From: Kofleriaceae bacterium
GTDB taxonomy: Bacteria; Myxococcota_A; Polyangia; Haliangiales; Haliangiaceae
DNA: 64,000 nt
Assembly: GCA_018058095.1 (NCBI GenBank)
Contig: JAGPCO010000025.1
Span: 1 to 64,000 of the forward strand
Direction: 5' to 3'
Shown: piece by piece, positions 46,104-46,735 of the stretch
Position numbering within the stretch: position 1 is the first letter of the stretch
Layout: each line of letters begins with the position of its first letter
Notes under the pieces: model-generated
The model's database searches: none
Told to the model about the DNA's origin: nothing
What the model saw: only the letters and a program-made list of their open reading frames with translations
Program-made: the position numbers and the translations under genes

Positions 46104-46304
46104 TCAGCGGCTCACGGCCGCCAGCAGCCCGAGCGCACCGCCGAGCCCGGCGGTGAGCAGCGGGTTGCTCTGATTGGGTCAACCGCTCGAGCAGCCGAAG
46201 AACCAGTAGTAGGCCAGGCCGGCGCTGACGCCGAGCGCCGCCCCTACCGCCGGGCGCCAGCGGGACGGGCGGAGGTCGGGCACCCCAGGGTCACGATCGG
46301 CCAT
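46104..46304 (-). CDS. Candidate selenoprotein: small membrane protein with in-frame TGA (DUF6132-like)
   Basis: Read through the TGA at 46181-46179, the frame gives 66 residues: basic N-terminus, one hydrophobic helix (about 19-36), FFGCSSG-Sec-PNQSNPLLTAGLGG and a second hydrophobic stretch, ending at a TGA at 46106-46104. From memory, DUF6132-like proteins have GC-S-S/T-G-x-C-P-x-T-SNP there; the TGA replaces the second Cys (C38 then U42, one residue closer) and SNP is kept. An 8-bp hairpin with GG-starting loop lies 31 nt downstream, as bacterial SECIS elements require. Divergent from thioredoxin by 77 bp. The alternative is a pseudogene or a 41-residue truncated product. SelA/B/C genes are not in the window. 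Confidence 0.6.
46136..46155 (-). promoter_or_regulatory. Candidate bacterial SECIS element
   Basis: On the minus strand CACCGCCG (46155-46148), loop GGCU (46147-46144), CGGCGGUG (46143-46136): a perfect 8-bp stem with a 4-nt loop whose first two bases are G. The loop begins 31 nt after the UGA. Published bacterial SECIS rules allow 16-37 nt and want a G in the first two loop positions. High GC raises the chance of random hairpins. Confidence 0.5.
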
Positions 46305-46381
46305 GGCCAAGCCTACGCCGGCGTGAGCGCGTGGCAACACCGCGCGCTGTAACGCGGGGCGCGGTCGCCACCTTGCCAGGC

Positions 46382-46735
46382 ATGTCCTCCTCCTCGCTCC
46401 CCGTCCTCGACGCGACCGCCCTCAGCGTGGAGCTGGCTCGCCCTGGCGTGCTGGTCATCGACTTCACCGCTCGCGGCTGTGCGCCGTGTGCTGCGCTGGC
46501 GCCCGTGCTGGTCGACCTGGCCCGCGAGCTGGCCGGCGCGGTGCGGATGGTCGCCATCGACGTCGGCGACCAGCCCCTCGTGGCCGAACGCTTCCTGGTC
46601 CGGGCCATGCCGACGCTGGTGCTGGTGCGCGACGGCCGCGAGGTCGGGCGCGCCGTCGGCAACCGGCCCCGCCGGTTCATCGCCGGCATGCTGGCCCGGG
46701 CGCTCGGCGGCGAGCACGCGATCACCTCGCCGTGA
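46382..46735 (+). CDS. Thioredoxin-family protein with GCAPC active site
   Basis: 117 residues, thioredoxin length. Active site FTARGCAPCAAL (Cys33, Cys36), with the usual Trp before the first Cys replaced by Gly and the GP dipeptide by AP. Cis-Pro loop AMPTLVLVRDG present. No signal peptide, so cytoplasmic. CAPC shifts the redox potential relative to CGPC. Divergent from the candidate selenoprotein and convergent with the ECF sigma gene (15 bp), in a locus that also encodes AhpC and AhpF. Confidence 0.93.
   Translation: MSSSSLPVLDATALSVELARPGVLVIDFTARGCAPCAALAPVLVDLARELAGAVRMVAIDVGDQPLVAERFLVRAMPTLVLVRDGREVGRAVGNRPRRFIAGMLARALGGEHAITSP

Follow-up and report, generated by a model that had tools for sequence, protein, structure and literature searches.

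A 2026 review lists 119 families of prokaryotic selenoproteins and gives limits for bacterial SECIS elements, namely a stem of 4-16 bp, a loop of 3-9 nt with a G in its first two positions, an apical loop 16-37 nt after the UGA and an MFE of at most -7.5 (PMC13188914). One listed form belongs to YeeE/YedE Sulf_transp (PF04143) and carries the motif GUxSG (PMC13188914). The uncharacterised family DUF6132 (PF19628), of which members occur in Bacteroidota, Ignavibacteria and other phyla, has no entry in the same 119-family table (PMC13188914). Here we describe a short gene that very probably encodes a selenocysteine (Sec) counterpart of DUF6132. It resembles known prokaryotic selenoproteins in having a UGA with a downstream SECIS-like hairpin, Cys homologues, a redox-type motif and a host genome with Sec machinery (PMC13188914).

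The gene is read from the minus strand of the window, by which we mean the whole 64,000-nucleotide stretch of DNA analysed. It opens with an ATG at 46304-46302, runs for 41 codons to an in-frame TGA at 46181-46179, and continues for 24 more codons to a terminal TGA at 46106-46104; with TGA read as U, the full translation is MADRDPGVPDLRPSRWRPAVGAALGVSAGLAYYWFFGCSSG-U-PNQSNPLLTAGLGGALGLLAAVSR, followed by the TGA stop. The initial annotation had read FFGCSSG, a TGA and 24 further codons up to a second TGA, and minus-strand translation confirms this frame. Its coordinates, 46104-46304, were correct; the strand was left unstated there and is minus, and the plus-strand frame over these positions encodes nothing relevant. 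The features referred to below are as follows.

46104..46304, minus strand: coding sequence of the putative Sec protein, 66 residues including Sec42 (translation; 20 homologous genes share the in-frame TGA)
46179..46181, minus strand: in-frame UGA, putative Sec42 codon (same codon in all 21 genes; the G000:C207 paralogue of this genome has Cys)
46191..46193, minus strand: Cys38 codon, the invariant partner in CxxxU (alignment)
46194..46259, minus strand: predicted membrane helix 1, residues 16-37 (AlphaFold2, mean pLDDT 65)
46113..46163, minus strand: predicted membrane helix 2, residues 48-64, encoded past the UGA (AlphaFold2)
46123..46169, minus strand: SECIS-like element (folding, recoding test, covariation)
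46169-46161 paired with 46131-46123, minus strand: SECIS lower stem (covaries across homologues)
46155-46136, minus strand: SECIS apical 8-bp hairpin with loop GGCU at 46147-46144 (loop 31 nt after the UGA)
46310..46315, minus strand: possible -10 element TAGGCT, 5 nt before the ATG (sequence pattern)
46331..46735, plus strand: divergent thioredoxin with active site CAPC; the start may be 46382 (Pfam PF00085, E 5e-18)

Searches of Pfam and NCBIfam assigned no family to the window protein itself, an Rfam scan of the window returned no match, and a plasmid search found no match to the protein. Upstream of the ATG, TAnnnT hexamers (often TACGCT) also occur within about 15 nt of the start in seven Sec homologues (L025, L026, L033, L039, L042, L024 and L052). 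Judged from this pattern only, these hexamers suggest that the window gene and its Sec homologues may be transcribed as leaderless single genes.

The in-frame TGA is widely shared. A search of 76 relative genomes found homologues with exactly one in-frame TGA; they amount to 21 genes with a TGA in the same column, from 19 Myxococcota genomes spanning six genera, three families and one class; 17 of the 30 genomes of the host's family possess such a gene. (A match in G013:C57 has two TGAs and appears fortuitous.) Within this set, identity to the window protein falls as low as 27%, and all 21 genes encode the motif GC-x-S/T-G/S-U, with Cys38, Sec42, P48 and four glycines invariant. Used alone as the query against named genome contigs, the window protein found no relative; an alignment of close homologues did find relatives, those with names being Deltaproteobacteria/Myxococcales MAGs.

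The reading frame past the TGA is likewise conserved across genera. All 21 genes align without gaps over the 24 codons past the TGA, and none has an in-frame stop there; in the nearer subgroup, 13 genes end 24-25 codons beyond the TGA. Per column, this stretch scores 2.19 on BLOSUM62 in frame 0; the two shifted frames score 0.49 and 0.93 and contain 29 and 3 stops. The median dN/dS is 0.45 past the TGA and 0.31 before it; selection at the RNA level probably lowers dS past the TGA.

The window gene forms a perfect 8-bp hairpin, CACCGCCG-GGCT-CGGCGGTG, that starts 23 nt past the TGA, exactly as first annotated in its stem, its GGCU loop and its distances of 23 and 31 nt. With that loop at 31 nt, the 8-bp stem and a folding energy of -27 kcal/mol, it lies within the published bacterial range, as had been claimed. 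Taken by itself, the fold past the TGA of the window gene has a z of -2.65 against synonymous recodings. For all 21 genes together, we compared the 63 nt past the TGA with versions in which synonymous codons were drawn at random from the codon usage of the window genes. The real sequences fold at a mean of -29.1 kcal/mol, the recoded ones at -23.3 (sd 0.75; none of 300 reaches the real value), an excess stability of 7.7 sd. Neither control displays an excess: in the same 21 genes, the 63 nt that precede GCxSG give -22.2 against -24.0 when recoded, and in 13 Cys homologues the stretch past the Cys codon gives -21.0 against -22.7. Three of the TGA genes (L026, L027 and L051), taken singly, have no excess folding past the TGA.

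Numbered from the first base of the UGA (position 0), the lower stem joins nt 12-20 with nt 50-58. These positions can pair in 0.80 of cells; the figure for recodings is 0.57 +/- 0.026 (0 of 1000), and sliding the stem by 1 to 3 columns reduces pairing to at most 0.52. Two wobble-wobble pairs exchange C-G for G-C, pair 14/56 with 9 CG and 8 GC and pair 20/50 with 11 GC and 5 CG; the genes are related, and these counts are not independent events. When all 21 sequences are folded to a single consensus, the result is weak (alifold -0.67), since their apical parts differ, and the signal consequently rests on the lower stem and on the per-sequence test. The fold of the window gene, together with the recurrence of TGA, frame and fold in 20 homologous genes, argues that the element is real rather than a product of chance.

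The initial annotation had likened the protein to DUF6132 and had placed the TGA where a Cys is expected. The likeness holds by profile-profile comparison, in which the Sec group and the Cys group match over the whole domain (hhalign 99.5%, E 2.6e-22, 59 columns) and three tested members of the Cys group all match Pfam DUF6132 (PF19628); the window protein and two Sec homologues do not reach the gathering cut-off of PF19628 in a Pfam search. The Sec protein shares with DUF6132 two helices, the GCxSG loop, the SNP motif and the glycine pattern of helix 2, and differs from it in having Sec for the second Cys and a loop that is usually one residue shorter, CxxxU as against CxxxxC. The common DUF6132 loop is GCxSGxCPITSNP, and because of its CxxxxC spacing the TGA misses the second Cys of most members unless a one-residue gap is allowed.

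The expected Cys is nevertheless found, one for one, in members with the shorter loop. A paralogue in the same genome (L050, G000:C207:43844-44002) reads GCSSG-C-WYQSSP and aligns without a gap to GCSSG-U-PNQSNP of the window protein; the homologues L156 and L158 also have Cys at the UGA column. Among members from other phyla, sequences from Ignavibacteriales (GCESGCAIQSNP) and Bacteroidia (GCSNGCTITSNP) match the loop of the Sec group residue for residue with Cys in this column. In the alignment to relatives, the TGA column thus holds Cys both in the ungapped paralogue and in members from other phyla, and the earlier placement stands for these shorter-loop members, while in most DUF6132 proteins the second Cys lies one residue further on.

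Sec also appears in more distant forms. Three come from other families of the phylum (L071, GCHSTUGITSNP; L101, GCHGAUGLTGNP; L103, G165:C292:2560-2712, GCRVGASUFYLASP). In L103, a distant member, the U lies two residues further along the loop, so that the position of Sec varies within the family. A gene from Candidatus Krumholzibacteriota (L176, about 1109-1264) encodes TCRGGGUHLSSNPW, in which Sec coincides exactly with the second Cys of the usual CxxxxC spacing, and this Sec probably had an independent origin. A tRNA-Sec at or above cut-off is present in each of the four genomes, and these forms suggest repeated Cys/Sec exchange in the family.

The host appears equipped to decode the codon. 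Its genome (G000; 7.57 Mb, 97% complete) encodes SelA, SelB and SelD and has a tRNA-Sec (selC) with anticodon UCA that exceeds the Rfam cut-off, so that all four genes whose search had been proposed are present. Its SelD (L018 about 1474-2514, G000:C27) itself has a single in-frame TGA within the motif GGGUAAK, the known Sec site of SelD; Sec is thus apparently in use in this organism. Across the genomes compared, selA is present in 18 of 19 with the TGA gene, the sole exception being 73% complete and in 1550 contigs, and in 35 of 57 without it (Fisher p 0.008, a statistic that ignores phylogeny); it is absent from 4 of 11 Cys-only genomes.

That the TGA simply terminates the protein, leaving a 41-residue product with one helix or a pseudogene, is very improbable. 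TGA is a frequent stop codon in this high-GC genome and a mechanical ORF of 53 aa does end at it, but the same TGA is shared by 21 genes over six genera, the frame beyond it is kept in both length and amino acids, and a paralogue has Cys there. Absence of Sec machinery, or an unconserved downstream stretch, had been named as grounds for abandoning the Sec assignment, and neither occurred. Even less credible is near-cognate readthrough with Trp or another non-Sec residue. Bacteria do read through some stop codons; against this reading, the TGA column is occupied in the paralogue and relatives by Cys, the chemical analogue of Sec, the Sec machinery is complete, and the SECIS-like structure with its compensatory changes is confined to TGA genes. 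Supported by the machinery, by Cys at the TGA column and by the frame and SECIS-like structure conserved downstream across genera, a selenocysteine reading of the UGA at 46181-46179 is very probable from the sequence data. With high confidence, the best explanation of the whole is a Sec-decoded, 66-residue membrane protein that is the Sec counterpart of DUF6132 and most likely has a redox or sulfur role.

By this account, SelB and tRNA-Sec would decode the UGA at the SECIS hairpin 12 to 58 nt from it, giving a 66-residue membrane protein of two helices and a loop, C-S-S-G-U, that holds the invariant Cys and the Sec. The AlphaFold2 model, of low confidence (mean pLDDT 65), places the CxxxU loop between the two helices; a fold search of solved structures gave no match. 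Basic residues at both ends point to cytosolic ends by the positive-inside rule, and we infer that both termini may be cytosolic, which would put the CxxxU loop at the inner membrane's outer face.

The neighbourhood offers candidate partners. The thioredoxin gene that had been annotated as divergent from the Sec gene is borne out by its PF00085 match; beyond it in the window lie an ORF reading as a sigma factor and then ahpC and ahpF, names that were read off the sequence. A thioredoxin gene lies within about 1.5 kb, usually directly upstream, at 18 of 35 Cys DUF6132 loci as against 0 of 44 unrelated control loci, and is nearby at just 3 of 24 Sec loci. Six Cys genes adjoin a DsbD_TM-thioredoxin fusion (L034, L043, L044, L063, L064 and L068). 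At these six loci the thioredoxin gene is usually on the opposite side, a recurrent thiol-relay operon. A shared neighbourhood of the Sec genes was sought and none was found, save for a sulfur operon in two congeners (L106 2426-4927 and L114 5392-8656), where a metallo-beta-lactamase with a double rhodanese and two Sulf_transp halves come after the Sec gene; this operon is likely a sulfide or sulfane-sulfur detoxification unit. DUF302 lies upstream of the Sec gene in L114 and L115, and OsmC in L116. Directly past one copy of the Sec gene (L115 8288-8884, G009) lies a TehB/TPMT-like methyltransferase, which possibly methylates a thiol, selenol or tellurium compound.

With thioredoxin, DsbD and rhodanese genes nearby, a Cys/Sec pair suggests that electrons or sulfane sulfur are exchanged. 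The pair could accept these at the membrane and hand them on; thioredoxin or a DsbD-type conduit would reduce it, and Sec would speed the exchange and raise resistance to over-oxidation. Drawn from neighbours and motif only, such a redox or sulfane-sulfur relay role seems to us evenly poised. DsbD/CcdA, which adjoins Cys DUF6132 genes together with thioredoxin, is likened here by neighbourhood and proposed role alone; the role in common would be to move reducing power across the membrane. It is tempting to speculate, and this is a tentative proposal, that the protein is a minimal selenol relay embedded in the membrane. In such a relay, the Cys/Sec pair of one helical hairpin may link cytosolic thioredoxin or rhodanese to periplasmic partners by moving electrons or sulfane sulfur at or across the inner membrane; this would be a previously undescribed type of selenoprotein.

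It is also possible, albeit somewhat doubtful, that the Sec is real and that the protein serves as a thiosulfate or sulfane-sulfur carrier, or as an accessory to YeeE/YedE, and not as a general thiol-redox partner. The operon of the two congeners, one of them with DUF302 upstream, favors this carrier, as does a feature shared by both families, a glycine-rich helix that leads into a GC[TS]SG loop. Against it, the operon occurs at only two loci, and the Cys relatives adjoin thioredoxin and DsbD instead. Any homology to Sulf_transp falls below significance (hhalign probability 18-24%, within 3-24% overall), with just 20-26 columns around GCxSG covered. YeeE/YedE proteins are larger and have many helices, and the known Sec form has its Sec at the first Cys, whereas that of the window protein is at the second.

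Turning from carrier to selenoprotein counterpart of DUF6132, NCBIfam 20.0, a collection with numerous models of selenoproteins, gave no match to the family. A literature search, conducted mostly outside subscription papers and preprints, returned no mention of a Sec-containing DUF6132 and nothing relevant on DUF6132 or on myxobacterial selenoproteins. Given this and its absence from the review table, the selenoprotein family appears to be new, and it resides in uncultured Myxococcota. Gene callers that take UGA as a stop shorten or overlook such genes in these organisms. The finding adds a family of the two-helix membrane hairpin type, which is unusual among known selenoproteins. The occurrence of Sec in place of Cys implies that in the uncharacterised DUF6132 the second Cys is likely reactive, and thiol or sulfane-sulfur exchange with thioredoxin or DsbD offers a testable lead for the family as a whole.
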